Source of the DNA: Paramacrobiotus metropolitanus
Taxonomy: Eukaryota; Tardigrada; Eutardigrada; Parachela; Macrobiotidae
Direction of reading: 5' to 3'
NCBI RefSeq assembly: GCF_019649055.1
Contig: NW_026570272.1
Coordinates: 186,001 to 250,000, forward strand
DNA length: 64,000 nucleotides
This document shows, one piece after another, positions 4,712 to 47,856 of the stretch. Within the stretch, counting starts at the first letter, position 1. Every line of letters starts with the position of its first letter. The translations under genes were made by a program, and so were the position numbers. The notes below the pieces were generated by a model, which was given only the letters and a program-made list of their open reading frames with translations, ran no database searches and was not told the origin of the DNA.

Positions 4712-5612
4712 CTACGAAGGACTGAATCATGGCCGTCAGGGTTTGCAGCCGTTCCTGATTCTTTACCGACCACACTGTTGTTGGTCTGAGGATAAATCGG
4801 GCTTCCTTGGCGTTGTTCTCCAAGTGTCCGAGATTGATATCGATCTGACAGTATTGCGGACTCCGTTGGTCGGTCTCGTCCATCATCTTTCGAAGTTCGA
4901 CGATGACAGCGTCCGCTCGCAGTAACTGTGTGTTGACTGCTTTTACCCATTCAAGGTCGGGTTTGGCTGGTGGGGCTGGAGGTGGAAGTCGGACAGAATC
5001 GAAACTCGGTTTCCGAGCCGACTGGATCTTTGTGATCCGCGACGGTCGACCTTCAGTCATGGCGTTTGTTGCCAAGCTGGTCGATTCCTGTTGTTTGTCC
5101 CGTTCCTTCTCTTCCTCGTATTCGTTCACCCTTGTTTCCAACCATGAGGTCGTTCGGATTAGGTGTTGTCGAGTCCTCATCGTTTGTGGGGCGTCCGGAT
5201 GACATAGTCGTCGTATAAACCGGGCATTGTTTCCCCACGCCAAGATATCTCGGTCCAAGTCATTCGCTTCTTGGCTGTTGTCTTCACAAAAGTTTCTGCG
5301 GGCCCTCATCTCTGTGATGAGTTCCGCTACTCTAGCCAATAGTTTGACTATATGTGGCGCGACCGTACTCGGCAGTTCGTCCGTGTCCGGTATGGCTTCC
5401 ATGATTCGGGCTTCCGTGGCCGGAGACATGGGCCGATCGGCCATTTCCATCAGTTTCGGTTGGGCAAAGCCTTCTGTTGAGGTCGGATTGGTGACAGTCC
5501 TTGGCCTACGCTCCACGTCATCATGGGTGGAGGTTGGCTCTTTGGGACGACCGCTGGTTGGGTCGTCGTCGGCTGTAGGGCTCGGATTTCGTCCTCCTTT
5601 TCCGTCAGCTTC
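4605..5612 (-). CDS. 303-residue helical ORF of the giant element
   Basis: The annotated 303 codons start at a GTG (5516), but the frame is open from 5612, so entry from the preceding ORF by -1 frameshifting is as likely as initiation. It holds two helical modules: about residues 45-110 (VKLLARVAELITEMRARR, then DILAWGNNARFIRRL) and 190-250 (LRADAVIVELRKMMDE, then NLGHLENNAKEARFIL), separated by a charged, disordered linker. Similar modules occur in the 470- and 166-residue ORFs upstream, so these frames look like parts of one repeat protein. Stops at TGA 4605-4607. Confidence 0.6.
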   Translation of the reverse strand, partial: EADGKGGRNPSPTADDDPTSGRPKEPTSTHDDVERRPRTVTNPTSTEGFAQPKLMEMADRPMSPATEARIMEAIPDTDELPSTVAPHIVKLLARVAELITEMRARRNFCEDNSQEANDLDRDILAWGNNARFIRRLCHPDAPQTMRTRQHLIRTTSWLETRVNEYEEEKERDKQQESTSLATNAMTEGRPSRITKIQSARKPSFDSVRLPPPAPPAKPDLEWVKAVNTQLLRADAVIVELRKMMDETDQRSPQYCQIDINLGHLENNAKEARFILRPTTVWSVKNQERLQTLTAMIQSFVDDFYKRKEAEVAITSQDQGTTLGNPEGDSVFPTTG

Positions 5613-5950
5613 TTAGTCCAATGCTCGATCAGTCCGGTATTACCCAGAACGGTTTCAGGGTAATATTCCTTGGTCGGATCGAGTGTAGCTAGGCGCTTCT
5701 TCACTTCGTTTATTTCGTGAAGGTATTCACTGCGCTTTTGCGCTAAGGCGTCCAACCGGGCTAGTCGGATTTCTTCATCAATCACCGCCTGTGTGGTCGG
5801 TGCTGATATTCCCGACGAGCGCAAGTTTTGTTCTTGTGCTCGTATCCGCTTCTCCGAGTCGGCTGCTATGTCGACTTGTTTATCTTCTTGTCGGCGTATT
5901 CTGCCGAATTCAGCCGTATAATTATCCATGTTCTGAGGAGGCGTGCCCAT
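5450..5950 (-). CDS. 166-residue coiled-coil ORF of the giant element
   Basis: Begins with a genuine ATG at 5948-5950 in good context, inside the end of the 470-residue ORF (85-base overlap, -1 frame). It is a charged helical segment (LDALAQKRSEYLHEINEVKK, later LIEHWTKKLTEKEDEIRAL). The last 25 residues look like a shadow of the next frame, implying that the biologically used frame changes near 5545, exactly where a slippery CCCAAAG lies. Its frame also stays open a long way upstream of the ATG, so frameshifting into it is possible too. Unknown function. Confidence 0.55.
   Translation of the reverse strand: MGTPPQNMDNYTAEFGRIRRQEDKQVDIAADSEKRIRAQEQNLRSSGISAPTTQAVIDEEIRLARLDALAQKRSEYLHEINEVKKRLATLDPTKEYYPETVLGNTGLIEHWTKKLTEKEDEIRALQPTTTQPAVVPKSQPPPMMTWSVGQGLSPIRPQQKALPNRN
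5492..5546 (-). promoter_or_regulatory. Candidate -1 ribosomal frameshift site (CCCAAAG plus hairpin)
   Basis: In the 166-residue frame the codons read ..C CCA AAG, so the heptamer CCCAAAG (5546-5540) is in the X XXY YYZ register and a -1 slip enters the 303-residue frame. Seven bases later a perfect 6-bp hairpin follows (CTCCAC 5532-5527 with GTGGAG 5516-5511, 10-nt loop). The loop end TGAC could pair with GTCA at 5495-5492 as a weak pseudoknot. CCCAAAG is not one of the strongest known slippery sequences, so this is suggestive only. Confidence 0.4.
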
Positions 5951-7278
5951 GACACTCTTAGCTTTACGGCCTCTTTCATGGCCTCCTCCTTCCGGAGACG
6001 TAGTTTTCCGATCTCCAGTGAGGGTGTTCGGCCAGGCGTTTGTCGGCCTGCCGAAGTCGACGGAATTGGTTGAGACGTCGGCGTGACAACCTGTGTGGTT
6101 ATCGCCGGGGGCCCTGGGTCAGGGTCTCCCAGTCTCTGGCCAACATGCCGAGCTACCGCTTGTTGGCAGATTCGGAGGGTTTCCTTTTCCTCGGCATGGA
6201 GCTTTAAGTTAGCATCGTTCAGACGGTTCTCATAGTACGACAGTTCAGCCAACAACTTCGTTCTGTATGGAGTGTGGCTCGGATCCATCTGTGAGGTCTG
6301 CGTAAGTGCTTGGCTGATCGTGTCTATGTGAGCACGAGCCAATTTTGCTTGTTGACGCAATTCCTCTGCGGTTCTGCCGTTGGTGTTGATTTCCTGGACA
6401 ACCGCAAAAGGTGGAGGCATCGACGTTACGACCTGTGTGGTCGTCGTCGAAACAGGCACTTGTTGGCTCTGTCCTCCGACTTGACTTCTGTGTTGGTTCA
6501 GCCGGTTCATTAAATGGGTCGTCGCGTTCGGATCCATCCAGAGGTTCTGTTGTCCGGGTGGCCTAAGATGGGTCGGTGAGATCGGTGGCGTAAGCAATAC
6601 TGGCCTTGGTGGCGAGATTGTGCCATCCGGGCTGACCATGCTGATCGTTGCGATTTGTGGGGGTGGCATTCCCGACGTTGGCGGGATTGATGCTAATCGC
6701 ATTGCCGGTGGGCTGTATGGGAAACTACTCGGCGCCAATGTGGGCGTCGTGTAGATCGGACCCGCTGTGTTAGCCATTCCTGGCGCCATTGTGGGCACCA
6801 TGTAAATCGTTACGGGCGTGTTCGCCATCCCTGGCACCATTGTCGGTGTCGGGTAAGCTGCTCCGGTCATCATTGTTGATGCCGAGCTGGTCGGTCCGAC
6901 TATTGTAGTCGGTACCGGCCACTGATAAGATGGCATTTGACCATGTGGGCCTGCTGCCGTTGTCGGAGTCATCTGACTCGTTCCAGTTCCGAGGTTCCAC
7001 AGACAGCCTGTGTTATCGACTGCTGTGTTCGGTGGCAAAATTTGCGGCGGTATCGCTCCACGTTGGGGCCCGACCGTAAGACCTGCTAACACATTAGCTG
7101 TTACGTTAGCTTGAGGATTGTCTACCTGCGGTAATGGCGTCTGTGTGGCCGACCGCGAATTGTCCGATCGCGATGTCGAGCGATGAGTCGGGTAGGGCTG
7201 TGATCGGTTCGATCCGTTACCGCTACGTCCGCTGTTCGATCCGCTGGAAGGTGGGTCGTGTCGGCGACGACCTGACAT
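5866..7278 (-). CDS. 470-residue proline-rich/helical ORF, first downstream ORF of the giant element
   Basis: Starts at a true ATG (7276-7278, context ACAACAATGTC) nine bases after a strong splice acceptor. The first 60 residues are Ser/Arg-rich; residues about 60-280 are Pro/Thr/Met-rich with an imperfect tandem repeat (PTMVPGMANT, PTMAPGMANT, PTLAPSS; bases about 6720-6860); the C-terminal third is helical (RTAEELRQQAKLARAHIDTI, LLAELSYYENRLNDANLKL). The ATG context resembles that of the ORF upstream of gag (CGACAACAATGTC), as if both mRNAs needed similar leaders. No signal peptide, membrane segment or enzyme motif, so it is not an obvious envelope protein. Function unknown. Confidence 0.65.
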   Translation of the reverse strand: MSGRRRHDPPSSGSNSGRSGNGSNRSQPYPTHRSTSRSDNSRSATQTPLPQVDNPQANVTANVLAGLTVGPQRGAIPPQILPPNTAVDNTGCLWNLGTGTSQMTPTTAAGPHGQMPSYQWPVPTTIVGPTSSASTMMTGAAYPTPTMVPGMANTPVTIYMVPTMAPGMANTAGPIYTTPTLAPSSFPYSPPAMRLASIPPTSGMPPPQIATISMVSPDGTISPPRPVLLTPPISPTHLRPPGQQNLWMDPNATTHLMNRLNQHRSQVGGQSQQVPVSTTTTQVVTSMPPPFAVVQEINTNGRTAEELRQQAKLARAHIDTISQALTQTSQMDPSHTPYRTKLLAELSYYENRLNDANLKLHAEEKETLRICQQAVARHVGQRLGDPDPGPPAITTQVVTPTSQPIPSTSAGRQTPGRTPSLEIGKLRLRKEEAMKEAVKLRVSWARLLRTWIIIRLNSAEYADKKINKST

Positions 7279-8483: not shown

Positions 8484-9668
8484 CTAATGCGAGCGCTGAA
8501 GTCGTTCTTTGATCCGTCGGATGTATTGTTCCTTATCCGTAAAGGTTTCTGGTGTATTCGTTCCGGCCACTACGTCCTGTGGCATGGTCATTTCTCGACC
8601 ATACATCATGTAGAACGGTGAGAACTTAGTCGCGGCATGGACGGCTCGGTTCATTCCGCAGACGACGTAATCCAAGGCTCTGTGCCATCGGTGTCCGTCT
8701 TTTACATCGCAGAACTTCCTTATCCCATCCCATATTGTTTGCATTTGCCGTTCGACTTGTCCTTGTCCTTCCGGATGATGGGCAGTTCCAAGTGTGTGTT
8801 GGATGCCGAAGATCCGTGCGACCTTAGCGAACGTCTTCGCCGTAAAGTGAGTCCCTCTGTCCGAGTGGATGAAGGTCGGCATTCCGTATTTCAGTAGGAC
8901 GTCTCTGACGAAGAACCTTTCGAATTCCCTCGCGGTATTCGTCTTCGTTGCCCGGGCTACGGTGAACTTCGTCAGCTGGTCGGTTACCACTGCGATATAC
9001 TGGTATCCCTTCGTCTCCGTCCGAGGAAGGGGACCTTTGAAGTCCGCGTATATGCGATACCAAGCTTCACCGACTTCCGTCTTTTGGAGTTTACCCGGTG
9101 GTGGACATCGTTGCTTGTTCGTCATAATGCATTGTCGGCATTTCTCAATGTAGGCTATGGCGTCGCTATTCATGCGAGTCCAAAAGTAGCGTAGCTTCAA
9201 TGCTTCGATCGTTTTCTCCCGTCCGAAGTGGTTTCCGGTTTTTCCGTCGTGGAGCGATCGGATGATTTGATTCCGCATAAAGAGTGGTACGACGAAGCAA
9301 CGTTCCAACTTTGTGTTGATCGTCTTCAGTCTGTACAATACTCCTTGCGCCATCTGGTAGTGTTCCAGATGTTTCGACTTGTGGTCGAGTTTCTCTGGAT
9401 TTTCCAGTTCATCGATGATTTTGCGTAGTTGCGGGTCTCGCAACTGCGCTTTCCGAAGTTCCGTGTTCGGTTCGGGTGGAGGTGGGAGTGTCTCTTCGAC
9501 TTCCAACTCGTCCTCCTCCGCCGTGTTGACGGTCCGAATGGTCGGTTCCGGTATCTCCGGTGCTGGGATGTTTATGACTCGGACCTCTGTGGTACTCAAG
9601 TCGTCCCAGTCGGTTATGACTTTGCATCCGGGGAGAACCGGTGGAAGGGGGATTTTGGTGGGTTTTCC
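8484..9668 (-). CDS. pol: Pol integrase: HHCC zinc finger and DDE core (after first in-frame stop)
   Basis: Reads on in the Pol frame directly after TAA at 9669-9671; the first in-frame start-like codon is TTG at 9599, so separate initiation is unlikely. Contains the HHCC zinc-binding domain (LHDGKTGNHFG and CRQC) and the catalytic core: the first Asp in YADFKGPL, the second in HSDRGTHF, the Glu in HPEGQGQVER. Length and spacing are normal for Ty3/gypsy. It ends at TAG 8484-8486 just after the core. Role: inserts the element cDNA into host chromosomes. Confidence 0.85.
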   Translation of the reverse strand, partial: GKPTKIPLPPVLPGCKVITDWDDLSTTEVRVINIPAPEIPEPTIRTVNTAEEDELEVEETLPPPPEPNTELRKAQLRDPQLRKIIDELENPEKLDHKSKHLEHYQMAQGVLYRLKTINTKLERCFVVPLFMRNQIIRSLHDGKTGNHFGREKTIEALKLRYFWTRMNSDAIAYIEKCRQCIMTNKQRCPPPGKLQKTEVGEAWYRIYADFKGPLPRTETKGYQYIAVVTDQLTKFTVARATKTNTAREFERFFVRDVLLKYGMPTFIHSDRGTHFTAKTFAKVARIFGIQHTLGTAHHPEGQGQVERQMQTIWDGIRKFCDVKDGHRWHRALDYVVCGMNRAVHAATKFSPFYMMYGREMTMPQDVVAGTNTPETFTDKEQYIRRIKERLQRSH

Positions 9669-12600
9669 TTATCCTTCTTCTTTCCTCTTGGAGGCGTTCG
9701 CCTTCAGACGTCTAAGAGTCCGTATTGTACAGACCTTAACTTCGTCCTTGAAGTCCTCGAAGTTGGGGACTTGGTCCAACTCTTCGTGTGGATCTTTGTC
9801 CTCACTACGTTCGAGTGGCCATCTCGACAGGGCGTCCGCATTGTCGCAGAATACGCCTGGCTTATACTCGATGGTTATGTCCCGTCCTTGTAAAGCCAGT
9901 GCCCATCTGGTTAGTCGAGGGTTGATGCCAGGTCGGTTCGACTCGCATCGGAGCAGATTCTGCAGTGCTCGGTGATCCGTTCTTACGGTGAATGGTCCGT
10001 GGTCAATGAAGTGCTTAAATTTCTGCACGGCCCATACCACGGCCAAACATTCCCATTCGGTAACTCCATAGTTGAGTTCCGGTCCTCGTAGGACTCTGCT
10101 GGCGTAGGCGATTGGATGATCGTCTTGTGAGATCACCGCGCCAAGTCCGGCTCCGCTTGCGTCACATTCAATGACGGTCTTCTTGGTCGGGTCGAACTTC
10201 GCCAGTACAGGTGCTTCGGTTAGCGCCTTCTTGATGTCGTTGAACTCAGCCGTGTGGGCTTCCGTCCAATCGAGCTTGATATTTTTGTCCTTCCGGAGGA
10301 GCTCGTACATTTTCGACGTCTTCTGAGCGTATCCTCGGATGAATTTCCGATAGTAGTTGGCCAGTCCGAGGAACGACCTGAGTTGCCGTTCAGTTCTCGG
10401 GCAGCTTTGTTCTGCAATACAGGCCACTTTCTCGTCATCGGTCTGGACTCCGTCTTTGCTGAGGACGTGTCCGAGGAACAGCAGTCTGTCCGTTCCGATC
10501 TCACATTTGGAGGGTTTGACCGTAAATCCGGCATCGCGGAGGCATTCGAGAGTCGCTCGAAAAGCTTCAAGGAAGTCTTCGAAAGTTTTACCGAAGAAGA
10601 TGATGTCGTCGATGTAGGCGAACACACCTTTCTTCCGAGCTGATGCCGTAATTTTATCCATATGCATTTGGAAAGTTGCTGGTCCGTTGCAGACTCCAAA
10701 CGGCATACGGTTAAATCGCCACATGCCTTCGGGTGTTACGAAGGTCGTGTAGTCTTTGGATTGTTCGTCCATAGGAATTTGCCAAAAGCCGGACTGACAG
10801 TCTACCTTGCCGTAGTATTCCATTCCGGCACATCGGTCCAATAGCTCGTCCGGGTTCGGTAGTGGGTAGTTGTTTTTCTTCGTAACGGCATTCAACTTGA
10901 TATAGTTGATGCAGAAGCGTGTTCCTACCGTGCCGTCTCCGTTCCGTTTCGCGGCTAAGACGACGGGGAAGCTCCATGCAGCCGATGACGGTTCGATGAC
11001 TCCTTGGTCGAGCATCTCCTGCACGTGTTTCTGGATGAATTCGCGTCCCTTCCAGCTTGTCCTGGTGGGGTTCATCTTAATCGGCTGTGCACCTTGGACA
11101 TCAATGGTATGTGTTACCCCTTTGACGTCTCCGTAAGGTTTCTTCGAGGTCGGAAATACAGTCCGGTAATCCCATGCAACTGCCTTCAGTTTAGCTAGTT
11201 GCTCGTCGGTTAAGTTTTTTCCGAAGTTCATGGAGTCGATGATTCTCCGTCGCTCCTCCTGGGATTCCGCGTCTTCCTTTTCTACCTCAGCCGTGTTGAC
11301 TCGTGCTTCCTCGACCTTCTGGTCGTCCGTCATCATAGTGAATGCTTCGGCTCGACCCATCGGTGCGCCTTTGCGTAAGGTGACTTCCCGATGAGTATGG
11401 TTTGCCACCATGACGGTGAACCGTTTCCCGTCATGCTTGGTTACGCCGTCCATGAATTCGACTCCGTCTCGTTTGGGGTCGGATTCACCTAGGTACATCA
11501 GTCTCTGGTCCGTGGATACCGGTACGTCCAGGACGACTTCTACCATGGTTACGGCTCGAGGGATGAGTTTGACCTTCCGTTGAGATCGAACTCCTGTTGC
11601 CTCGAAAACTTCGAACTGGGGTTTTGGCTTTATTTCCCGAGTAGGGGGCCATGTCTTCGCCACTTTGTGTGGGAGTTCCCATTCGACGAATTCATTATTG
11701 ATTTCCGGTTCATAGACATCGGCATATTGCATATGGCCAAGTCGTGCGCCTTTTTTCAACACCTTCGTTTGGTGAGTCGTATTCTGGATGTTTATCCATG
11801 CCGTGTCATTTTGGGGTCGGATGTCGATCTTGGCTTCGATTGGCCGAATAGGTCGGACTACCCGTTGTAGGGTAGAGAAGTAAATTCGTCTTCTCGGATC
11901 CATTGGTTTGGCCGTCCGTACCTTGATCGAACATGTTGACCATGGTGGGAGAGAGACTCGGTCGCTGTTAAAGACAACTTGTCGGTCTAACGCTTTCGTC
12001 TCTACGTAAGGATCCAGCTTCAAGTGGTGGACTTCTGGGCATTTGTTGTCCAGGTCCAGCTCGTCAATCGTCTTGACTTTGGCGACTCGTGCCTTCCATG
12101 TGTTGAAATGCTCCGACTTCTGTTGGTCGGTCAAGTTAGCCAAGGTCGGTTGTTCGGTTGACAACTGCTGAATGACGATTGTTGGAGGTCGGAAGTCGTC
12201 TTGTTCCGGTTTACCTCCTCCGAATTCCCACAAAGCCTTAAGTTGGTCGAGTTCCTCCTGTTGTTCGGGGTCGACTGGCTTGGGCTGTTCGGTTTGTTCC
12301 GGTTGCTCGTCTATAAATTCTGTGTGAACTATAGACCGCAATGCTGTAGTTAGCCGGACATCGAAGGTCGGTTCTTCGTCCTCCGATGACGAATCATCCG
12401 AGTCGTTTATGCTCGGTTTATCCGTCTTACAGTGTCGGACTGACAGATCGAATTCTTCGTCGTCATCTTCCTCGGATTCTTCCGAAGGTCGGTTATCGGA
12501 GTCTGTGTCCGCCGAATCGCTCGTGCTTTGTATGTCCGAGTCGTCCGACTGATAATCTTCGAATTCGACTTCCGATCCGTTTTCGGGGTCGACTTCTGGC

Positions 12601-15305
12601 ACGTCTTCGAATCCGACCTTTGTGGTCGGTTCGAGTTGGTCGACTTTATCCGTCAGTTGGGTCGGTCGACTTACCCCGTCCTGATTCTCGAGGTCGGCTG
12701 GCTGCGAGCCTATGTTGCTCAGCCATCGGATGCTCGGCGGTTGGGGCTTCCGACAGCGGTCTACCTTCCGTTCCTGTTGCGGAGGCGACGGTGACGACGG
12801 TCTTTCGTCCGACCAAGTTAGGTCGTGATGAGCTTTTATTGCTCGTACTACCTCGTCAATATTGTCTTGACAGATAGCACACCGATAAAGTTGATCGGTT
12901 TCCTCCAGGACTACGTCTCCTTGAGGCTTCGCCGGGCTACTCGCAAACTTCACGTTGGTTGGAGTGTGCGGCGTAAGTGGTGGTAACGGTCTAGGAACTT
13001 GCCGCGTTATGGCAGTGTCCTCGCCGTACCGTTGCCAAAATGCAGTCGTTGTCGATTCTCCGTGCAACCTTACTCGCTGCATGTAGGCGAAAAGTTGGGA
13101 GCCTAGTTCCTGGCAAGGCATCTCGAGCGGGGGTGGTATAGGAAGTCCGTATTCCATATACTGTCGATGGATCGGAATTCGTTCGTCCTCCCATTCCCAT
13201 GCTTCGTCCTCTATGTCGTTCATGAGGGCGATTACCGGTTCACACGTTTGTTGTGCGTCCAGTATCTGGTCGGGGGTTATTGCTCCGTTCTGTTGCAGAG
13301 TGGTCACTATCTCCGACGTCCGTTGGTCGAGAAAGTGTCGAACTCCCGAGAACCAAGTTCGGTACTTTTGTCGTACTTCCTCTCGGTTCATGGCATCCGC
13401 GTCAGCGGATGCCTCTGGTATCGGGATAGACTTCAATACGGTCTTCGCCGATCGTAATGTACCAGTGCTTTTCCGTTCTTCGTACGCTTCGATGGCGTTG
13501 TGCAGCTTAAGTTCCTCGAGCAGAGTCCGGTTGTTGTCCCGGCAGTCACGGCAGATGTTACGTGTGGAGTTCGCCGGGTGATCAAGCCGACTAATCCGAA
13601 CTTCGTTTCCTACCGTGTCCGATGCCTCTGGTATCGGGATAGACTGCACTACCGTCGTTCCTTCTGGTTGTTCCGGAATAGGAATCGGCGTCAGAATGAA
13701 GGTGAATTTCGAATGCAGGTAGTCGCATCCGAGTAGCACCGGGATGTCCGCTTCGGTCGGTTGGACGTGAAAAGTGTGATGGCTGGTAAAGCCCTGCATT
13801 GTTACAGGTGCCGTACAGCAATGAGACACTACGAAGGCGACTTGTCCGCCTACACCGAGTATTTTGGTGTAGTGTCCGAGAGGTTGTATCGTTAAGCCGT
13901 TCCTCTCACAAAACCGTTGTTCGATGAGCGAGGTTTCCGCTCCGGTATCCAACATCGCCAGTGTGGGCGTGGATCCGACTTGGATTTCGTGTGTCCAAGC
14001 TCGAACTGTCTTCGGTTTCTTATGTGTTCCCTTCTCAAAGGTAACTTCCCGCACCGTTGGTTTGATGGGGATTAACGACACCGGTCCGTGGTCGGCTGGC
14101 TGTTGAGTTGAACCTTGTGTAGGTCCGACTCCGACTTCAACCACTTCTATTACCTCGGGTCGGTTAGCTACTCCGTCCTCCGGTATTTCGGCGGTTCCGA
14201 ACCGTCGTGCCTGTGCCAGTATCCGTTCCTCCATTGAGACTTCTGTTGGCCTCAATGTTGACCACATGTAGTCGAGGTTGAGGAATGTTCGAGAGCCAGC
14301 TACCGTTCTGGTCGGCTGCTCCTTTGCCTGGAAGAGGTCCGCTTCTCCCGGCCGAGAGTAAACGGGTACCTGTGCTTCCAATGGGACGGTTTCCCATTGC
14401 TCGAATCCTTCCGGTTCTTCGGTAAGGTCGATTGCTGCCATTGTTGCAGCGTATCTATCCGTGGCGCGTCCGGATGATACATTGGGGAAGTTCCTGTTGC
14501 CCCGGTGCGTGGATCGGCGTCCCGGTCCTCCACGTCTTGGGCCTCGTCTGGGCTGCTCGGTTGAGTTTGTCCTCACCGGCAATCCGGTCCAACTTCCGTG
14601 GCCGGGCCGTACTACGTCACTTTGTGTGACGGACGGTGCAGTCGCATTGTTTGCGCTGCTTGGGTCGGGCAATTCCTGCGTTCCGACCTCCGACGTTCCA
14701 GCGCCAAGTTGATGCGCTGGGTCGGTTGCCTCGAGTGCCTGTTGCATCCCGGGCCAAGCTTCGACGGTGCCATTGTTGGCGTACACGCCGAGCTGAGCGG
14801 CTAACTTCCGAGCCGTTTCCGCCTCCTTTGTGGAGGTCGACATCGCTTTTGCGAAATCCTCCTCGGAGCTGTTTTCGTTCAGTCCGAGTAGTTGGAGGAT
14901 GGTTGCTATTTGTTGATGGCTTTCCTCCATCGTTGTAGGAAAGTTCCAGTCGTTCCATATCGCCGATGTTCCAGCGCCGTGTCGGTTCGCTGGGTCGGTT
15001 CGGCCGGGCATTTCTTGCGTTCCGGTCCGGAACTCGATTTCACCGTTGTTGATGAAAATTCCGAGTTCGGCTGCCTTAGTTCGGGCGGCCATCGCCTCCT
15101 TTGTGGGGGCTGACAGTGCCGTGAGGAATTCCTCCTCCGTGCAGCTGGTCCAGTCCAGTCCTAATGTGTTTAGGACTGTTACTATCCGTTTTTGTAACGG
15201 ATTAAAGTCCGGCTCGTTCCGTGAGGTAAGCGGCTGGTTAGTTGGGTTATCCTTGTCCGGTGGTTCGGTCGGATGTTGGAGGTCGAATGAGTCACCGGAG
15301 CTCAT
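9669..15305 (-). CDS. pol: Pol: N-terminal repeats, aspartic protease, RT, RNase H
   Basis: 1,878 codons, in the -1 frame relative to Gag, with an ATG overlapping the Gag stop (ATGA) and a frameshift signal 12 bases upstream. N-terminus: two tandem copies of a helical module of about 110 residues (about 33-112 and 128-210). Protease motif LDTGAETS at residue about 452. A long linker (about 560-1,380) carries two CxxC[RQ]DN knuckles and acidic runs. RT runs from about 1,420, with FAYIDDIIFFGK (catalytic YIDD) near 1,566; RNase H starts at about 1,710 (CDASGAGLGAVI). The frame is open throughout and ends at TAA 9669-9671, before the integrase. The linker is unusually long for gypsy Pol. Confidence 0.92.
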   Translation of the reverse strand: MSSGDSFDLQHPTEPPDKDNPTNQPLTSRNEPDFNPLQKRIVTVLNTLGLDWTSCTEEEFLTALSAPTKEAMAARTKAAELGIFINNGEIEFRTGTQEMPGRTDPANRHGAGTSAIWNDWNFPTTMEESHQQIATILQLLGLNENSSEEDFAKAMSTSTKEAETARKLAAQLGVYANNGTVEAWPGMQQALEATDPAHQLGAGTSEVGTQELPDPSSANNATAPSVTQSDVVRPGHGSWTGLPVRTNSTEQPRRGPRRGGPGRRSTHRGNRNFPNVSSGRATDRYAATMAAIDLTEEPEGFEQWETVPLEAQVPVYSRPGEADLFQAKEQPTRTVAGSRTFLNLDYMWSTLRPTEVSMEERILAQARRFGTAEIPEDGVANRPEVIEVVEVGVGPTQGSTQQPADHGPVSLIPIKPTVREVTFEKGTHKKPKTVRAWTHEIQVGSTPTLAMLDTGAETSLIEQRFCERNGLTIQPLGHYTKILGVGGQVAFVVSHCCTAPVTMQGFTSHHTFHVQPTEADIPVLLGCDYLHSKFTFILTPIPIPEQPEGTTVVQSIPIPEASDTVGNEVRISRLDHPANSTRNICRDCRDNNRTLLEELKLHNAIEAYEERKSTGTLRSAKTVLKSIPIPEASADADAMNREEVRQKYRTWFSGVRHFLDQRTSEIVTTLQQNGAITPDQILDAQQTCEPVIALMNDIEDEAWEWEDERIPIHRQYMEYGLPIPPPLEMPCQELGSQLFAYMQRVRLHGESTTTAFWQRYGEDTAITRQVPRPLPPLTPHTPTNVKFASSPAKPQGDVVLEETDQLYRCAICQDNIDEVVRAIKAHHDLTWSDERPSSPSPPQQERKVDRCRKPQPPSIRWLSNIGSQPADLENQDGVSRPTQLTDKVDQLEPTTKVGFEDVPEVDPENGSEVEFEDYQSDDSDIQSTSDSADTDSDNRPSEESEEDDDEEFDLSVRHCKTDKPSINDSDDSSSEDEEPTFDVRLTTALRSIVHTEFIDEQPEQTEQPKPVDPEQQEELDQLKALWEFGGGKPEQDDFRPPTIVIQQLSTEQPTLANLTDQQKSEHFNTWKARVAKVKTIDELDLDNKCPEVHHLKLDPYVETKALDRQVVFNSDRVSLPPWSTCSIKVRTAKPMDPRRRIYFSTLQRVVRPIRPIEAKIDIRPQNDTAWINIQNTTHQTKVLKKGARLGHMQYADVYEPEINNEFVEWELPHKVAKTWPPTREIKPKPQFEVFEATGVRSQRKVKLIPRAVTMVEVVLDVPVSTDQRLMYLGESDPKRDGVEFMDGVTKHDGKRFTVMVANHTHREVTLRKGAPMGRAEAFTMMTDDQKVEEARVNTAEVEKEDAESQEERRRIIDSMNFGKNLTDEQLAKLKAVAWDYRTVFPTSKKPYGDVKGVTHTIDVQGAQPIKMNPTRTSWKGREFIQKHVQEMLDQGVIEPSSAAWSFPVVLAAKRNGDGTVGTRFCINYIKLNAVTKKNNYPLPNPDELLDRCAGMEYYGKVDCQSGFWQIPMDEQSKDYTTFVTPEGMWRFNRMPFGVCNGPATFQMHMDKITASARKKGVFAYIDDIIFFGKTFEDFLEAFRATLECLRDAGFTVKPSKCEIGTDRLLFLGHVLSKDGVQTDDEKVACIAEQSCPRTERQLRSFLGLANYYRKFIRGYAQKTSKMYELLRKDKNIKLDWTEAHTAEFNDIKKALTEAPVLAKFDPTKKTVIECDASGAGLGAVISQDDHPIAYASRVLRGPELNYGVTEWECLAVVWAVQKFKHFIDHGPFTVRTDHRALQNLLRCESNRPGINPRLTRWALALQGRDITIEYKPGVFCDNADALSRWPLERSEDKDPHEELDQVPNFEDFKDEVKVCTIRTLRRLKANASKRKEEG

Positions 15306-15323
15306 CGACCTTGGGCGTTTCCC
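15256..15323 (-). promoter_or_regulatory. Gag-Pol -1 frameshift signal with H-type pseudoknot
   Basis: Slippery heptamer GGGAAAC at 15323-15317 lies in the Gag register as CCG GGA AAC (X XXY YYZ). After a 5-nt spacer comes stem 1: AGGTCGATGAG (15311-15301) with CTCATTCGACCT (15291-15280), 11 bp with one bulged T. Its loop holds TCCGGTG (15299-15293), which is perfectly complementary to CACCGGA (15262-15256), giving a 7-bp stem 2, with 1-nt loop 1, a single A between the stems and a 17-nt loop 3. A -1 slip enters the Pol frame, which is open from 15329; the Gag TGA (15304-15302) lies inside stem 1. All base pairing was checked by hand. Confidence 0.88.
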
Positions 15324-17833
15324 GGGGAGTTACTCCGAGCTGGCCCGTTGTTGGGCGACGCCAAGCCGAAAGGCTGATGTGGCGGTAACTGTTGCCGCCG
15401 TTCCGGAGATCCCTGTTGACCTCCACCGCTATTCCTGCGGTTGCCACCCGACCCGTTTCCTGGGCCGGTTTGCCGGTTTCCGTTACCGGCGCCACCCGAG
15501 CCTCCACCTTGTTGGCGTTGGCGCGGGGGCGGCACGACCAGTGCATAGTTCGGGTTGGCCGATCCCAACGGTCCTCCCGTCTGGTATCGCGTATGCCAAT
15601 CCTCGAACCAACGGCGATTCGGGTTGTCCTGTACCCGGGTGCCGATGAACGCACATCGTGCTTGGTCGTGATTGCTGAACTTGCAGAAATTGCAAGTAAA
15701 GCTGTCCGCTAACGACCATTGGAGGAACAGTTGTTCCATCCGGTCCACATAGGTCGTGTACTGCCGAGCACTTTGTTGTGCCTGGGGAGGTCGGTTCCCT
15801 TGTTGGTTGCCGCCTCCGCCGCGGTTAGGAAAGTTGCCGCGACCGCGTTTTCCGCCGCCACGTCCTTTTCCGCGACTGAAACCTCCGCCGCCATATCCCT
15901 GTGTGGGAGGTGGGCCGTATGCGGAGTATCCCTGGTTCGGGTTCTGTCCGTAACCAAAACCTGTGTTGTTTTGATTACCGCCCGAGCCGTAACCTGGGCC
16001 TCCGTAGTTGTTAACGGGGGCTCCGATTCCAGGTGCCGGGGGGTTCAGATTTGCTGCCGCCGCGCTCGCCCAAGTCTGTTGCTGGACTGGTGCTTGTTGC
16101 ACCGGTGGCGTCGGCGCCGGACTCCGTTGTCCGTACTGTGCCGTTGGAGTTTGGTATCCCGGCATCATGTGCGGCTGATATCCAGTCTGTTGTGGTATCG
16201 CCGGAGGTGGAGCTGGGACAGGTGCAGGTGTTGCTGCCCGGACTCTGGCGTAGTCGCCGTCGCGTTGTCTGCGCACCTCGTACATTTCCTTGCCATTGAC
16301 GAAGCTCCGTAAGTAGTCGCGGAACTCGATTGGTGTCGCTGGCATCCTGATTTCCAGGGCTTCCCGTAGTTTGGGTTCGTGGACGTTCTCTTTGAGATGG
16401 TACATTATTATTTGATCGGTAATCGTGGGGACTTGGGACTTCATGAACATCATTGCATCGTAGTACTGTTCCGGCGTTTCTTCGCCGAAACGGAATATCC
16501 GTTTGTTAATTCGGGATATCATGTTCACTTCTTTGTTCTTGTCCGCAAATCGCTGCTCGAATTTGGTCAGCCATAAGTTGACTGGCCATCCGCCGAGCGG
16601 TTCTCCGGCGGCTTCGAGAGTATGCCACTCTTCCGCTTGGCCCTCTAGTCGGGCTACCAAGTCGGACATGAAAGTCTGATCGTCTTCGTACCACTGTTGG
16701 GCTTGACGATACAGGCTCCGGATCTGTTTAAGCCACCCATGAAGTTTGGTGTGGTCTCCGTCGAACGGCGGTAAGGGTTGCCGACGTCCGTGAGATATCG
16801 CTCGTACCAAAGCAATGTGTGCCGGGTCCTGTGCCGGGGGAATCAGGTGTGCCACCGGCGCAGCTTGTTGTGCAGCCGGGGCAGGTGGCGGGTTGGCATA
16901 TGGTACGTGACCTTGTTGGTCTTCGTATGCCCCCTGTTGATAGGCTTCTTCGTCGTAGCCGTCGTATTCGTCCTGTTGCGGATACCGAGCCTGGGCCTGG
17001 TCTTCGTGACGAGGCCGTTGTGGCTGTCCTCCATACTGTTGTGGAGGGGGCGCTCGATTTTGTCTCGGCGCCTGCGGATAGAATCCACTCGGTTGGTCGT
17101 AGACTCTTCCGTACCGGTTGGGCTGTGTTCCCTGAACCGGTATCCGACCTTGTATTAGTCGGTGTGGAGGCACCCGACCTTGTTGGTCGGAGCTATCCTC
17201 TCCGTTCTGTCCGTCCTGCCGCTGGTCGGTCGTGTTAAATGACCGAGCCCTTGCTCGTTCAAAGTCGAACGGCGGGTTCTGGCGGAGGAAGTTCGGATTG
17301 GAGTTCGTCCTTGGTGGGCGATATGCTTCGATGCCCGGTCTCAATGGCGGGACTGGGAGACGTTCGGCATCTGTTGTCCGATCTCCTCTCGCATTAGGTA
17401 CCGGCGCGTACGTTGTTGTCCGCGTCGCGTACGAGGTGCTGGTGTATGCACCGGCAGACGTCGTTGTCGCCACGTTCGACGTTGGCACTCGCGGTGCCGC
17501 GGTCGACGTATTGTGTTCCGGTTCCGGAGCACTCGGTATAGTTGGTGGTTGTGGGATTGTTCCCACACTCGGGTCGGTCGTTACGACTCCGACGAAGTAG
17601 GAGGTGTTGTTCTCCTTCTCCGCCGTTTGCTGGGTTGGGTTGATTCCCCACAGGATGTCACTGATAGTTCGTGACGGGTGTTGATCCTGTGCCATGGACG
17701 TCCGGTATGAGGGAGGTTCAACCCGGCTATGTTCCCGGTATGAAGGAAGTTCGACCTGGCTTTGTTCCAGGTGCCTCTTCTCTTCCCTCAGACACCGTGT
17801 TTCCGTGTCCATCTCGTCCATTTGCCGCATCAT
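15302..17833 (-). CDS. gag: Gag: capsid domain and CCHC nucleocapsid knuckle
   Basis: 843 codons from ATG ATG at 17833. N-terminus: two short PSY repeats, one of them a PPSY like the late-domain motifs retroviruses use for budding factors (residues about 30-42); then Pro/Gln/Tyr-rich sequence; a capsid (retrotransposon gag) domain at about 350-520 (PPFDGDHTKLHGWLKQI, then EEWHTLEAAGEPLGGW and LTKFEQRFADKN); a Pro/Gly/Gln-rich stretch with Arg-Gly-Gly runs; one CCHC knuckle CNFCKFSNHDQARC at about 714-727 (C-x2-C-x4-H-x4-C). It overlaps the coiled-coil ORF by 107 bases in the +1 frame and ends in ATGA with Pol. Particle-forming RNA-binding protein of the element. Confidence 0.9.
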   Translation of the reverse strand: MMRQMDEMDTETRCLREEKRHLEQSQVELPSYREHSRVEPPSYRTSMAQDQHPSRTISDILWGINPTQQTAEKENNTSYFVGVVTTDPSVGTIPQPPTIPSAPEPEHNTSTAAPRVPTSNVATTTSAGAYTSTSYATRTTTYAPVPNARGDRTTDAERLPVPPLRPGIEAYRPPRTNSNPNFLRQNPPFDFERARARSFNTTDQRQDGQNGEDSSDQQGRVPPHRLIQGRIPVQGTQPNRYGRVYDQPSGFYPQAPRQNRAPPPQQYGGQPQRPRHEDQAQARYPQQDEYDGYDEEAYQQGAYEDQQGHVPYANPPPAPAAQQAAPVAHLIPPAQDPAHIALVRAISHGRRQPLPPFDGDHTKLHGWLKQIRSLYRQAQQWYEDDQTFMSDLVARLEGQAEEWHTLEAAGEPLGGWPVNLWLTKFEQRFADKNKEVNMISRINKRIFRFGEETPEQYYDAMMFMKSQVPTITDQIIMYHLKENVHEPKLREALEIRMPATPIEFRDYLRSFVNGKEMYEVRRQRDGDYARVRAATPAPVPAPPPAIPQQTGYQPHMMPGYQTPTAQYGQRSPAPTPPVQQAPVQQQTWASAAAANLNPPAPGIGAPVNNYGGPGYGSGGNQNNTGFGYGQNPNQGYSAYGPPPTQGYGGGGFSRGKGRGGGKRGRGNFPNRGGGGNQQGNRPPQAQQSARQYTTYVDRMEQLFLQWSLADSFTCNFCKFSNHDQARCAFIGTRVQDNPNRRWFEDWHTRYQTGGPLGSANPNYALVVPPPRQRQQGGGSGGAGNGNRQTGPGNGSGGNRRNSGGGQQGSPERRQQLPPHQPFGLASPNNGPARSNSPGNAQGR

Positions 17834-19952
17834 CTCCGTTAGATTGCGGGCGGCTTGTTCGCCAAAGTCGTATAGTTCGACTTCGCGGGCTTCCAGGTAA
17901 ACGATGCGGCCGTGTTGCGCCTCGTTTACCTTTCGAGCTTCGTTGCAGGCTGTACTCCAGTTGAGCTCGGAGTTTCTGTTCCTCCTTGAGGGCTTGGTTC
18001 AGCCCATAAACCTGGTCGGCTAGCTGAGCGTTTGCTTCCACCAGGTCGACATCGGCTGTCCTTTGGTTAGGAAAGCCCATGTCCCGAGCGTTCACGTCGA
18101 TGAATCGACGTCCCGTTCTGACGAGGTGGATTTCCATTTCCGCCTCGAGCTCGTCGATTCGTTGCGTTAGTCGGTCGATCTCGTTATCGGCCTTCTTAAG
18201 TACCACCACATATCTATCGACTTCGTTTCGATAGACTTCGGCCTCTTCGGTGGCCTGGTTGAGTTGCTGGTGAAACGCTCCGGCTGCCTGTTCCGACTCG
18301 ACCAGTGCGGTCTGAACGTCGGCCAGGTCTTTCTGTGCTTCTTCGAGCGCTTTGTGCGCCTCGTCAAGCTCCTTTTTGATTTCGAAGACGGCTGCTGTTG
18401 ACCGTTCCAACATGCCAGTAAGTATGGCGATTTGGTCGTCTTCGTATCGACACGGTAAGTCAGCTCGCTTCAGTATGGCGTTAAGCCGGTCGATTTCCCG
18501 TTGTTGGGTGGCGATGCCCTTGTTGGCATCGGCCATGTCTCGTTCCCATTTCCTCCGTTCGAGCTTATGGGTGTCCTCCGAGTTTCGGAGGGATCCTTCC
18601 GCCGAGTCGACGATTTTGTCCGCCAAAACGATCTGTGTGATCAGTTTATGGCATCTCGCTCGGAGTAGGTCGAGATCGTTAATCTTCTCGGGCGGTGTTG
18701 CCGCGATCCACTTCTTGGCCGTGTATTCGAGTGCACTTGCCTGGTATCCGAGGTTCTCCTTATCGGACTTGGGTGGTGTCGTAAAGAATCCGTCCGCACT
18801 ACTCGGTCTTGACGCATTTGTTGCGTCAAAGACTTCGTTTGTCGGTGACGGAGTACTACCAAGTTCGCCGGTTCCGAACATTGGTGGTGACGATCTCAGT
18901 GTCTGGTCGACAGGTCGACTTTGTGTCGCCTTAGTCGACTTCACCGTTTGTTGAGCTTCGGTTGCTCGAGTCGACTCGCTTCCAGTTGGCGAAGGTCGGC
19001 TCAACGGTGAAATTACCCGTTCGTTGGGTGCCGGCATGTTAGTCGGCGATCCGGCTGGGTGAGGGCCGCTTCGTGGCGGTACCTCGGAATCTTTCGTTCC
19101 TGCCGGTGATTTAGTCGACTGGACGGCCGCATCCGACTTTGTGTCTGCTGGTTGCCGTTCCAGGCTAGTCGGTTGCCTGTTGCCGACTTCCTTTTGTCCG
19201 ACCTCCGTGGTCGGCGTCTGTTGTCCGACCTTGGAGTTTGGCGAAATCCTTCCGACCTGTGTGGTCGGTTGGACGTTGCCGACTTCTGTTGTCGGTTTCT
19301 CCCTTCCGTTCGAGGTCGGTTGTCCGACCTCTTTTGTTAGTGGTGGGTCGACCTTCTGTTGGTCGACTTCCTTTGCTGAGGGCTGGTCGACCATTTGTTG
19401 GTCGGCTTCCCTAGTCGGTGATGGTTCACCGGCTCCTTTGGTCGGAGATTTTCGCTCGACCTGTGTGGTCGGCGATTTCCGTCCGACTTGGTTAGTCGGT
19501 ATGTCCATGTTGGACGAGGTCGGCTTCGGCGCTTCTTCCGTCCTGTTGGGTGATTGCCGTCCGAGCTCGGTGGCTTTTGTAGCCGTTACCGAGTCTGGAG
19601 CTCCGTGTGAGCTCGACTGTTGGTCGGCATGAGACAATGTGGTCTCTGCCTGCAGCTGTTCCACATCCTCCCCGGTCGGGTGGGACGGGGCTGCTACGTC
19701 AGCTGGGGCTTCCAGGAATGTTTTATCCCTGGCGTCCTCAAAACTGTCATCCGAGGTTGGATTCGAGTCAGCGAGGAGAATCCGTTCGTTGCGTCTCTCC
19801 TTCGCTTCGGCCGACTTAGTCGAGTCGGTTGAGGACGGCTGACTTTTGTCCTGACCGGCATACCGGAGTGAGTACTTTCCGGTCATGTTCGCACGCCGAG
19901 AATAGTCCGTGTTGAACTTTCTCGCGTACTCATTTTCTCGAGGATTCGACAT
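17727..19952 (-). CDS. 741-residue coiled-coil ORF upstream of gag
   Basis: True ATG at 19950-19952. Residues 1-420 are low-complexity, with many short repeats of the type PTTxVG / SPTxxV (residues about 145-250; bases about 19,190-19,520). Residues about 445-660 form a long heptad-rich coiled coil (KKELDEAHKALEEAQKDLAD and QRIDELEAEMEIHLV). The C-terminus is basic and overlaps gag; it ends at TAG 17727-17729. No nucleic-acid or enzyme motif. An extra ORF ahead of gag is known in Ogre-type elements, but I see no sequence similarity I could vouch for. Confidence 0.75.
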   Translation of the reverse strand: MSNPRENEYARKFNTDYSRRANMTGKYSLRYAGQDKSQPSSTDSTKSAEAKERRNERILLADSNPTSDDSFEDARDKTFLEAPADVAAPSHPTGEDVEQLQAETTLSHADQQSSSHGAPDSVTATKATELGRQSPNRTEEAPKPTSSNMDIPTNQVGRKSPTTQVERKSPTKGAGEPSPTREADQQMVDQPSAKEVDQQKVDPPLTKEVGQPTSNGREKPTTEVGNVQPTTQVGRISPNSKVGQQTPTTEVGQKEVGNRQPTSLERQPADTKSDAAVQSTKSPAGTKDSEVPPRSGPHPAGSPTNMPAPNERVISPLSRPSPTGSESTRATEAQQTVKSTKATQSRPVDQTLRSSPPMFGTGELGSTPSPTNEVFDATNASRPSSADGFFTTPPKSDKENLGYQASALEYTAKKWIAATPPEKINDLDLLRARCHKLITQIVLADKIVDSAEGSLRNSEDTHKLERRKWERDMADANKGIATQQREIDRLNAILKRADLPCRYEDDQIAILTGMLERSTAAVFEIKKELDEAHKALEEAQKDLADVQTALVESEQAAGAFHQQLNQATEEAEVYRNEVDRYVVVLKKADNEIDRLTQRIDELEAEMEIHLVRTGRRFIDVNARDMGFPNQRTADVDLVEANAQLADQVYGLNQALKEEQKLRAQLEYSLQRSSKGKRGATRPHRLPGSPRSRTIRLWRTSRPQSNGDDAANGRDGHGNTVSEGREEAPGTKPGRTSFIPGT

Positions 19953-21180: not shown

Positions 21181-21786
21181 GTAAATGAAGCCTTCACCGT
21201 CTCCTCAAAGGTTCCGTCAGAAGGAAAACCAGAAAAGATGCTGCTACCATGTAACAGATAAGCACGAGGAGATCACGAGTGATGCTTTATTGACAAATAA
21301 AGGGGAGCAATGCTGCGTAATAGCAGGAAAGCAAGAACATAGCCGTGATGGCCAAGCAAGTGTGTGCTAGAAAGCTCTTGAGCGTCCGTCAAGGCGTGAA
21401 AGAAGCAACTGCCGGCAAACACGTGCTGTGTGCCATCAGCTGTGTGATGATGCGCAGACTGGACTCTATCCAACGCGAGCGTATGAACGCTGAGTCATAC
21501 TGCGAAAGAGGAACGAGAGAGCAAGTGTGGCTCAGTGTATGCGCTGCGTATATCCGCTTCAGCGGATGAGTGCAGTGCAGCAGCACACGTACGTACAGCG
21601 AGAGAGGTGGTAACGGCAAGCAATGGTGCAAGTACGTCCTGTGTGGACCGTACGCACCAGGCGCAGTCGTACGCCTCTGACATGTCTTTTGCTCTCACTT
21701 AAAAAAAAAACTGAATTTTCGCGCGAATCCGACGCAGGTTTATACAGCTTAAACTGCTGGAAATCTGGTAAAAACTAGTAAAATAT
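21181..21786. other. Boundary region without recognised gene
   Basis: Transition between the retroelement's word usage and AT-richer host sequence. Only short unconvincing ORFs are present and an A-run occurs near 21,702. The right end of the element or its LTR probably lies here, but no TG..CA edge with a target duplication could be assigned. Confidence 0.3.
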
Positions 21787-21941: not shown

Positions 21942-22324
21942 CAGAGTTTTTGGTCAGCTTCGCCGCAGATTTAGAAAGTCATAATTTAATGCGGAAACAA
22001 TAAGCCCAGAACAATAATAATAATTATTTTGGGGTTTTGCCGCCGTTTATATGTGCACACTGTCGTAACATCCCGCGGCGAAATCGGTGTTTATGAATCG
22101 CCGCATATTGACACAACTTGCTCATGTAGCTTGCCAAGTAAACTGTCTGGTGTCTGCGAATTACGATGTCTGTTAAATTAAGTTAGGGAAATCGCTGCAG
22201 CGTTGAACTAAGGATACTTGTAGTTTTTTAGTTTTTTCTCTTTCATTAGTTTTTATTGTCGAAACGGTTATACAGTCCGGCAAAAGCAAAAGCTGCTATT
22301 ATTTCTCTAATGACTACTACAGCC

Positions 22325-25300
22325 ATGCACCACAACGTTACCCATTGTGGCTGGCCCAAGCGCGATTATAACTATAGTATCCACCATCCCGAACACCTAT
22401 ACCCTGATATGGTTCTGCGTCCAATTTGGCTCTTCATCTGCACCACCGGCAATATCATCAACATCATTCTGCTGAGAAAGATTCGCACCTTCCAGGCCAC
22501 CTTTCTGCTGGCCATGGCTGTTTTCGACATGACATTTATGCAAGTCAACACTACTATTCCTTAGATAATCAAAAAACATCACAATTTTACAACATTAAAA
22601 CACTACTTTGCATTTAATACCAGACATTTGCTTCACATGTATTCGTACAATGTTATGTACAAGTGATACTAAGACGTACATTTAAGCAAAGCTTGTAAGT
22701 TATTTCTAATTGCTGCATACTAAACTGCCCATCACATAGCTCTGGAACATGCTTCATACGCATCGTTGCAGCCCATATATTTCTCTTTTTTCAGGTGGAC
22801 ATTTTTCGTGCCATACATACTGGTAAGTCCACACCGGTGAAATAGGCCGCAGTTTTACTGCAGGACCGAAAGTACAATGGATGAATGGACGACAAAACTT
22901 AGGCCTTGGCTCAAATTCGAACCGTATCTCGCTACGGTACGGTAGCTCCACCGCACGAAGTAGCTGTTTGCAGTGGCCACGCCTACAGATACCGTTTTTC
23001 AAGCCACCTCGTGCGGTGGAGCCACCGTACCGTAGCGAGATACGGTTCGAATTTGAGCCAAGGCCTTACTTTACCTCGGAACCGGTTTTGCGGCTTTAGC
23101 TTTAGACCGAGAACAGAGAGAACACGGTTGGCGCGCTTACTGCTCAGCAAGCGGCTATAGCGACGGATATGCGGCGCTCAATCATCGTATGCGCTGTCAG
23201 CCGACAGCGGCTAACGGTCCGGAGTAAAGTAAATTTTGTCGTCCATTGTAGTTGGAATCTGCACCAGCAGCATAAGAAAACATTCAAACATTTCATGCAG
23301 GCACATGCAGGAATCCCCTATCAACAGCATTCATACAGTCGGAGATCGGTGTCATCGGTCGAGTGTGTTGGTAGGTTGCGTTCGGTTGCTGCTCCTCGAA
23401 CTGGATGCCTACAAATGGCTAGTGCTTAAATGTTCGTAGGGAATGTTGCTGTACAGTGCTCCGACTGGTATGGCATCTTCTAAGCAACAAATTCGGCTAC
23501 TGGAATCCATGGCCTGTTTTGCAGGGTTCTTCTGGCGTTCAGCGTAACCCGCTTGCTGAGCATCATAGACCCGTTCGGCGTGGCGACGCGTTTTACGCAG
23601 TGCCGCATGCGGATCCTGGTTCTGTGTTTGATCCTGCTGGCGGTGGTCAACAACATGTTCCATATCGTGGATTATGCCACGGAAGGCACCAGAACGGCCA
23701 ACGCCACCTGGGTGAAGAACTGGCGCCACGTTCAAAGTAGTGACGCCAGGGTACGCCAGTGACCTTGTCACCTTGTACTAAATAACCTAGTTCTCGATGT
23801 TGAAAATGCTACTCAACGAACAAATGTCATCGTGTTCCATCGAACTACACGTCAGACTGTTAGTTTGTAGATCGGTTCCCTGAAAATACAGCTGCCATGG
23901 GCTGTATAGGGAGGAGTGAATAAGCGCCGCATATTCGTCACGATCATCGATCAGCCGTTTACTCCGTACTCAGCCGGCAAGCGGAATTAAATGTCTGGAT
24001 AAACACATCCCTTGTATTCAGGCAAATCAACAACCGGCAGGGAAACGAGAGGGGCGTCCAGTAGGCATTTCAAACTTACGCTCTGTCCAATGGAACTACT
24101 GCGCCAGGCGCTTTAGGTTAACTGCGAGCGGGCTTTTTTTGAACAACAAGACGTCGTACTTATTCGCTTTAAAATGAACTGCGGTGCGCTAGTCTTTTAC
24201 TTGTGGAGGGATGTTCCGAACCTTAGCTAAACCAACTGTGCCGAACCCGCACCCGGACAATTGGTAGTGTGACACTTCGCCGCAAAAGAATTCCCTTAAA
24301 CCTTTGTAGTTTCTTGAAGACGAGCATTTCCCGGAGCTTCAGGTCTTAGAATAATGAAGTGACCGAAAGGTTCCGCTACAGCCTTACATAAGGTCACTAA
24401 CACGACTGATATACCTAGTTGCACATGTAAGTCTTAACATCCGGCACGTCGCGCACCAATTTCGAAGCATTCCAGGCAAAACTCCAAGCCTGTTCGTCGT
24501 TAACGTGTACAGGTAACTGTACACTCAACCTGCTGAGTCCGCCAACAGTAAAGCAGAATTGAAGATAAGCTCTAGGCCTTTCACTTACGTATGGTTGTTT
24601 ACAACGCGATCGACTTCGCTCATTGTAAGTACCGTCTGCTTGCAGATAGCCGCGACATTATCAACTTTCATCGCTCTGCCGCTGATCAACGCCGCGGTCA
24701 TTGGCATTCTCCTCAAGCGCCGCATGTTAAACAGGGCCTCGGCAGCAGGTCAGCGGATGAACGTCGCCGACGGCCGCCAATGGGTGCTGAACATACGGAA
24801 GAAGAACGGCCTCGTGGCAGTGCGTTCACAGGGACGCGATAAGCGGACGACGCTGACCGTGCGTCTGCTGACGGCTTCCGTCATCATGTACCTCCTCTGC
24901 CGAACTCCCTACGTCATGTGGCAGGCGTTTCTGCAAGCGGACAAGTATTGTGTGTTCCGTCTGACCGATGGCCAGAGTATGATCTTCCTGTCCTTCACCG
25001 AACAGGTTCTCTATGCCAACTATTCCATTAACTTTCTGGTTTATTGCGGTGTCAGTCGGCAGTTTCTGGCCCGTACGTTGTGGATGGTACGCCACTGTCG
25101 GCGTCCGCAGTTAAACCGGATCAATCAGCATTCCACGTCCGAGAATACGGATGAGACTGCTTGTGCGGTTATTAGTATCCAGCTGGAAAAAGCGTTAGAG
25201 ACCCAGGCGCGACGGAAATCGCAGCGGTACTTCGTGACTAATGGCAGCATATCCGTTTCCAGTTCGAGCGATGCGCCGTCACAACAATCGAAAAATCGTG

Positions 25301-44196: not shown

Positions 44197-44296
44197 TGCA
44201 GCGCGTAGCAAACGACTATTGTGTTATGTATTGTCAGTTCGATATGATGAGTACTGTGCGATAGCGAGCTCGCCAATAAACTAGTAATTCACGACA
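44197..44296 (+). repeat. 5' LTR of the mag-like element
   Basis: 100 bp, begins TGCAGCGCGTAGC and ends TTCACGACA; nearly identical to 47857-47955. Contains AATAAA (44274-44279) close to its 3' end. Confidence 0.93.
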
Positions 44297-44358
44297 AACT
44301 GGCGTGAAGGTAGTACTAAAAACTCTTTTAAGAAACTATCACGCGCTGATTCACGACG

Positions 44359-47799: not shown

Positions 47800-47856
47800 T
47801 TTTCTTTTTTTTTATTTTATTGATGGTTTTATGAGTGGGCAACCCACTGGGGGAGA

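Follow-up and report, generated by a model that had tools for sequence, protein, structure and literature searches.

The joining of Gag and Pol by -1 ribosomal frameshifting is already known from animal long terminal repeat (LTR) elements, and the GGGAAAC layout is known from a Ty3-derived gene. The papers cited here are drawn on as excerpts. In a 2003 survey, Pol lay in the -1 frame in 28 of 51 animal LTR elements, many of them with slippery heptamers, and the excerpted text names no pseudoknot for these elements (PMC5009743). PEG10/Edr, a domesticated mammalian gene of Ty3 origin, makes its gag-like/pol-like -1 fusion with GGGAAAC, a 5-nt spacer and a downstream pseudoknot (PMC2800197, PMC5009743). 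The gag-pol signals of caprine arthritis encephalitis virus (CAEV) and feline immunodeficiency virus (FIV) also combine GGGAAAC with an H-type pseudoknot (PMC3835772). The subject here is the gag-pol junction of a Ty3-type LTR retrotransposon of the tardigrade Paramacrobiotus metropolitanus, a many-copy element of about 27.35 kb. One copy lies in the 64-kb stretch of DNA that was analysed (the window). Coordinates are positions in this window, and both the element and its junction are read on the minus strand.

The junction most probably (roughly 0.93) serves a family of giant Ty3-type LTR retrotransposons as the programmed -1 frameshift signal between gag and pol. The sequences themselves show an in-frame heptamer, a -1 overlap, the pairing of a pseudoknot, and conservation with compensatory changes over three subfamilies. 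The heptamer G GGA AAC is in register with the Gag frame, 12 nt ahead of the Gag TGA, and its 0-frame codons are GGA (P site) and AAC (A site), with GGG AAA as the target for -1 re-pairing. Pol is in the -1 frame relative to Gag and is open from 15329. Because of a Pol-frame TAA at 15332-15330, the two frames overlap by only 28 nt in the window copy. An X XXY YYZ heptamer in the 0 frame thus lies inside a -1 open reading frame (ORF) overlap. It is followed by a 5-nt spacer and an H-type pseudoknot that ends at 15256 and is composed of an 11-bp stem 1 with one bulged base, a loop 1 of 1 nt, a 7-bp stem 2 and a loop 2 of 17 nt (Table 1). A candidate stimulatory structure stands behind a short spacer, with 7 bp in stem 2 here and a five-pair core over the copies. 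An initial annotation, made from the letters of the window, had proposed a -1 frameshift module joining Gag and Pol, with GGGAAAC in the Gag register at 15323-15317 (-) and 12 bases before the Gag stop, a 5-nt spacer, an 11-bp stem with one bulge, 7 bp of loop pairing and a gap of 17 nt. Each of these features was recovered exactly where it had been placed.

This is the anatomy of a retroviral gag-pol -1 frameshift signal, a kind of signal for which the slippage step is established. By analogy, most ribosomes would read Gag to its stop. A fraction would stall at the pseudoknot while GGA occupies the P site and AAC the A site, and both tRNAs would re-pair one base back, on GGG AAA. The slipped ribosomes would continue into Pol and produce a Gag-Pol fusion. 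Slippage in this element, its frequency, and selection for a fixed Gag:Gag-Pol ratio are thus expected from the established mechanism.

The resemblance to retroviral signals that the initial annotation had drawn holds for CAEV, and the geometry is also close to that of PEG10. The CAEV entry reads 4/10/7/1/15 against 5/11/7/1/17 here, if its columns are taken as spacer, stem 1, stem 2, loop 1 and long loop, as we assume (PMC3835772). CAEV and FIV are lentiviruses and not Ty3 elements, and the tardigrade copies dispense with the outer stem-2 pairs. PEG10 is a domesticated gene whereas the tardigrade module belongs to a multicopy element, and the comparison between them covered the layout of the signal. 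The further remark that metazoan gypsy elements are not known for clear pseudoknots is not supported: the excerpted survey has Pol in the -1 frame in 28 of 51 elements without naming a pseudoknot (PMC5009743), but the PEG10 pseudoknot is described (PMC2800197). For the tardigrade element, a pseudoknot is supported by a comparison of 84 copies. The planarian element Burro is, like the tardigrade element, Ty3-type, with an internal region of more than 20 kb, thousands of copies and extra coding DNA (PMC6431247). Burro encodes a single huge ORF1 polyprotein with Gag first and Pol included (PMC6431247), whereas the tardigrade Gag and Pol are split by a -1 step, their frames differing both in the window copy and at 13 of the 20 divergent loci. 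Those 13 loci have an ORF followed by a -1 ORF, with GGGAAAC inside the overlap, where the heptamer begins 13 nt before the stop ends.

The 84 copies compared are the window copy, 39 close copies (L009-L047), 19 of 20 loci from L049-L068 and 25 of 30 from L069-L098. The junction of L064 was not alignable (score 35) and was excluded, as were the duplicates L069, L070, L074, L080 and L092 (equal to L055, L058, L062, L056 and L060, respectively). By nearest reference, 42 copies belong to subfamily W, 6 to B and 36 to C. The family extends well beyond this set. The reverse transcriptase (RT) of the element was found at at least 150 places with 76-100% identity, among the best scored of 1336 first-look candidates. 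Moreover, a genome-wide pattern of heptamer plus stem gave 194 matches, and a stem-1 pattern that leaves pairs 6-8 free gave 214; the reversed control gave 0 in both cases.

The initial annotation had named the loss of heptamer or pairing in other copies as an outcome that would count against it, and the comparison gave the opposite result. Of the 84 copies, 78 have an intact heptamer; L093, which has an insertion in the heptamer, is counted as not intact, and L021, L042 and L089 also have damaged heptamers. All 11 pairs of stem 1 are kept in 79 of the 82 gap-free copies, the remaining three (L038, L073 and L096) have ten, and no single pair is lost from more than one of the scorable copies. 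The stem-2 core of five pairs (2-6) is kept in 82-84 of 84 copies. When the partner strand is slid, stem-1 pairing falls from 99.3% to 20-57%, and stem-2 core pairing falls from 99.0% to 7-60%.

Variability by column was counted as non-majority cells in the window copy and the 39 close copies, with the downstream end averaging 23.9 rows. Such cells make up 0.4% of the heptamer, 0.2% and 0.6% of the stem-1 strands and 0.4% of the stem-2 3' strand, against 11.5% of the spacer, 7.2% of loop 2, 9.7% of the upstream flank and 9.6% of the downstream flank. Loop 1 and the stem-2 5' strand together have 5.6%, wholly from one outer stem-2 position. That position aside, the heptamer and stems are 11-50 times less variable than the spacer, loop 2 and flanks, and this alternation of conserved and variable blocks matches the pseudoknot prediction. 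It also bears on the idea that constraint on the Gag C-terminus and Pol N-terminus drives the conservation, with the pairing as a by-product. As this idea needs, the whole stretch codes for Pol, and the part before the Gag stop codes for Gag too. Coding constraint fits poorly with paired columns that are nearly frozen while the spacer, loop 2 and flanks vary, or with Pol residues that differ here between W and C (by eye) while the pairing is retained. Protein constraint alone was rejected on these two grounds, and we consider this explanation very improbable.

Changes on both sides of a pair are seen at four positions. Stem-1 pair 6 occurs as G-C, G-U or A-U; pair 7 as A-U, G-U or G-C; and pair 8 as U-A, U-G or G-C, with the bulge shifting by one. 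Stem-2 pair 6 occurs as U-A, U-G or C-G. All four pairs occur as G-U in other copies. On a tree built from flank sequence, with the root branch set aside, pairing is kept in 16 of 19 stem-1 changes and broken in 3. With transitions only, half would be expected to keep pairing, and with other changes among them a smaller share (binomial P 0.002); a stricter count gives 12 of 15 (P 0.018). The A-U form of stem-1 pair 6 is present in L054 and in four genome-wide pattern matches, where every A faces a U, and these cases may share one origin. Among the 67 stem-1 pattern matches whose letters were displayed, all three of the free pairs are kept in 64, and two of them in the other 3. When the same strand sets were re-paired at random, the mean was 48.3 and the maximum 56, in a control that ignores relatedness.

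Compensatory structure of this kind is compatible with any RNA function. The structure could therefore serve packaging, dimerisation or reverse transcription and sit at the gag-pol border by chance. This would leave unexplained why 78 of 84 copies have GGGAAAC 5 nt upstream in the register of Gag, and why a short -1 overlap surrounds the heptamer. An RNA element of this sort in place of a frameshift signal is accordingly given very little weight.

A third alternative concerns the way in which Pol is started. The Pol ATG and the Gag TGA overlap in the window copy (ATGA), and Pol might be reached by termination and re-initiation there, with the stem incidental or aiding re-initiation. The initial annotation had allowed for such a second route and had placed the Gag stop inside stem 1. 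Both features are real in the window copy, and neither describes the family. Of the 84 copies, 46 have the ATG: 41 of the 42 in W, 5 of the 6 in B and none of the 36 in C. It is absent from every C copy, one W copy and one B copy. In 64 of 84 copies Gag ends at a TAA within the spacer, away from the ATG. A TGA inside stem 1 that overlaps the ATG is the minority state, found in 17 of 84 copies (the window copy and 16 others), all of subfamily W. Re-initiation would also leave the near-invariant heptamer unexplained. As a general route it was rejected, since the ATG is not conserved and is missing from all of subfamily C, and as the explanation of the junction it is highly unlikely.

Chance is a poor source for the module as well. 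A scan of both strands of the window found 548 X XXY YYZ heptamers, and a stem 1 of 11 pairs with a stem 2 of 7 follows only GGGAAAC and the overlapping CCCGGGA one codon upstream, which precede one common pseudoknot. One weaker match of heptamer and structure lies at 27591. Among 2000 dinucleotide shuffles of the downstream 80 nt, a single one gave a stem 1 of at least 9 with a stem 2 of at least 5, and no shuffle matched the native pseudoknot in size. Folding with ViennaRNA, without pseudoknots, places stem 1 in the minimum free energy structure (-25.8 kcal/mol, z -2.77), and 3 of 200 shuffles fold as well as the native sequence. An Rfam scan of the window gave no match at the gathering threshold. 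Searches for SL2 and for cuticle collagens, as signs of a nematode host, were negative, but so were their controls, and these negatives carry little weight.

Several points weigh against the frameshift signal. Frameshifting at this junction is inferred from the comparison of sequences. The 5-nt spacer is shorter than the 6-9 nt called typical (PMC3835772), though the PEG10 spacer is also 5 nt. The outer pairs of stem 2 are poorly kept (pair 1 in 25 of 84 copies, pair 7 in 47 of 83), and therefore the supported stem 2 is the five-pair core; in subfamily C it consists of four Watson-Crick pairs plus one G-U or mismatch. A single deep branch, between subfamily C and the rest, carries three of the four two-sided changes, and each of these is for that reason one event. 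Between 2 and 6% of random four-change variants of stem 1 keep 11 pairs, so the change on the C branch is by itself only moderately unlikely. Two-sided Watson-Crick stem-1 pairs number 2 of 10 in the true register, 3 with the partner slid by -1 and 2 with it slid by -5; the true register is singled out by the percentage paired, without help from these counts. Finally, the module could double as another RNA function. Conservation with compensatory change over three subfamilies nevertheless indicates that the structure is under selection, on few independent two-sided events.

The subfamilies differ in how the pseudoknot is built. W and B have a weaker stem 1 (hairpin of -14.5 kcal/mol in both the window copy and L049) with a stem 2 of 6-7 bp, and C has a stronger stem 1 (-19.2 kcal/mol in L055, -17.7 in L054) with a stem 2 of 4-5 bp. 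One tentative reading, which we regard as possible and on balance doubtful, is that the subfamilies have retuned a single frameshift pseudoknot, keeping or shifting the Gag:Gag-Pol ratio needed by a 27-kb RNA genome with a Gag of about 1600 amino acids (aa).

Table 1. Position of the frameshift module and of the other parts of the element in the window.
Feature	Position	Strand	Remarks
Slippery heptamer G GGA AAC, Gag register	15317..15323	-	From sequence; intact in 78/84 copies
Spacer, 5 nt	15312..15316	-	Gag TAA here in 64/84 copies, absent in the window copy
Stem 1, 5' strand, 11 nt	15301..15311	-	
Stem 2, 5' strand, 7 nt	15293..15299	-	Conserved in the core (pairs 2-6) but not in the outer pairs 1 and 7
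Stem 1, 3' strand, 12 nt	15280..15291	-	Includes one bulged base
Loop 2, 17 nt	15263..15279	-	Variable
Stem 2, 3' strand, 7 nt	15256..15262	-	
Gag stop TGA within stem 1 of the window copy	15302..15304	-	Minority state
5' LTR, 435-nt match	21250..21684	-	Identical in sequence to the 3' LTR, which lies beyond the window at contig C52 180331-180765
Upstream ORF	17727..19952	-	Read as N-terminal Gag, inferred from length; frame break near 17930
Gag, C-terminal part in the window copy	15302..17833	-	Capsid-like region (by eye); one CCHC knuckle, 15694-15653
Pol	9669..15305	-	Protease (aa 440-531), RT (aa 1462-1614), RNase H (aa 1680-1806); ends at TAA
Integrase part of Pol, same frame	8484..9668	-	H2C2 and rve domains; closed by TAG

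The surrounding element has the LTRs, primer site and target-site duplication of a Ty3-type LTR retrotransposon, and its domain order (protease, RT, RNase H, integrase) is that of the Ty3 type. By eye, the 435-nt repeat has TGT...ACA ends. The TGT begins 2 nt into the match, which is probably where the LTR proper starts. TGGTAGCAGC follows the 5' LTR, and the 4-nt GACA stands on both outer flanks of the LTRs (both by eye). The length of about 27.35 kb follows from the LTR ends and the flanking GACA. Downstream of the integrase the element continues for more than 12 kb, at window 659-7278 (-) and on to the 3' LTR outside the window, and the long ORFs there (1329, 303, 166 and 470 aa in the window) gave no Pfam match.

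The frameshift module is intact in the window copy, and the copy itself is damaged. The frame and stop that the initial annotation called Gag are correct, but the ORF looks like only the C-terminal part of a frame that is longer in many copies; it has no Pfam match. Matches to the upstream ORF elsewhere often stop at query residue 123-124. Among the matches listed (154 in all), 34 place this stretch in an open frame of at least 1300 aa, with lengths of 1303-1664 aa plus one of 3543 aa. Gag therefore seems to be split in the window copy by the frame break near 17930, its continuity being judged from length. A separate gene or a second programmed (+1) site at the upstream ORF is not favoured, given the 34 long open frames.

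Pol is likewise interrupted in the window copy, by in-frame stops at 9669 (TAA) and 8484 (TAG). Several other copies lack the TAA at 9669 and carry RT and integrase in one open frame (for example 2626, 2581, 2537 and 2535 aa), and programmed read-through at the two stops is not favoured on that account. The LTRs are identical, so the window copy is a recent insertion. Being both damaged and recent, it may have been mobilised in trans. Another copy, G000:C25:1208475-1216421 (junction in L033), has a 3543-aa open frame at both the N-terminal Gag match and the RT, and Gag and Pol appear to be fused there without a frameshift.

Two other kinds of repeat occur in the window. A second, small element at 44211-47955 has matches to a PNMA-like Gag, protease, RT and integrase and is flanked by a perfect 86-nt direct repeat; the window scan gave no frameshift pseudoknot like that of the gag-pol junction in it. 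A diverged, gene-sized repeat is present in several copies and both orientations (22319-25431, 32862-38132, 53827-57908 and 58892-62160); its ORFs are about 180-344 aa long. A Pfam scan of three of them gave no match. The repeat is possibly a local gene family.

In the literature searched, which covered few subscription journals, no paper was found on ribosomal frameshifting in tardigrade retrotransposons, and none on covariation of a retrotransposon gag frameshift pseudoknot. From the literature on tardigrade LTR retrotransposons and gypsy elements, the excerpted text of PMC11071193 mentions neither Paramacrobiotus nor frameshifting. The module thus amounts to strong comparative support for a known kind of signal, in a phylum for which no description was found in this literature. 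A guess made from one sequence has become a frameshift pseudoknot backed by many natural copies in one genome, and it can be assayed directly. Should the retuning of subfamilies prove true, roughly 200 natural copies (the 194 and 214 pattern matches) would form a ready structure-function series for frameshifting. A gag-pol frameshift may also explain split gene models in this genome, where the annotated protein P0002 starts at the protease. For the family itself, the comparative evidence indicates retrovirus-like gag-pol frameshifting in a tardigrade element nearly three times the traditional size limit of roughly 10 kb (PMC6431247).

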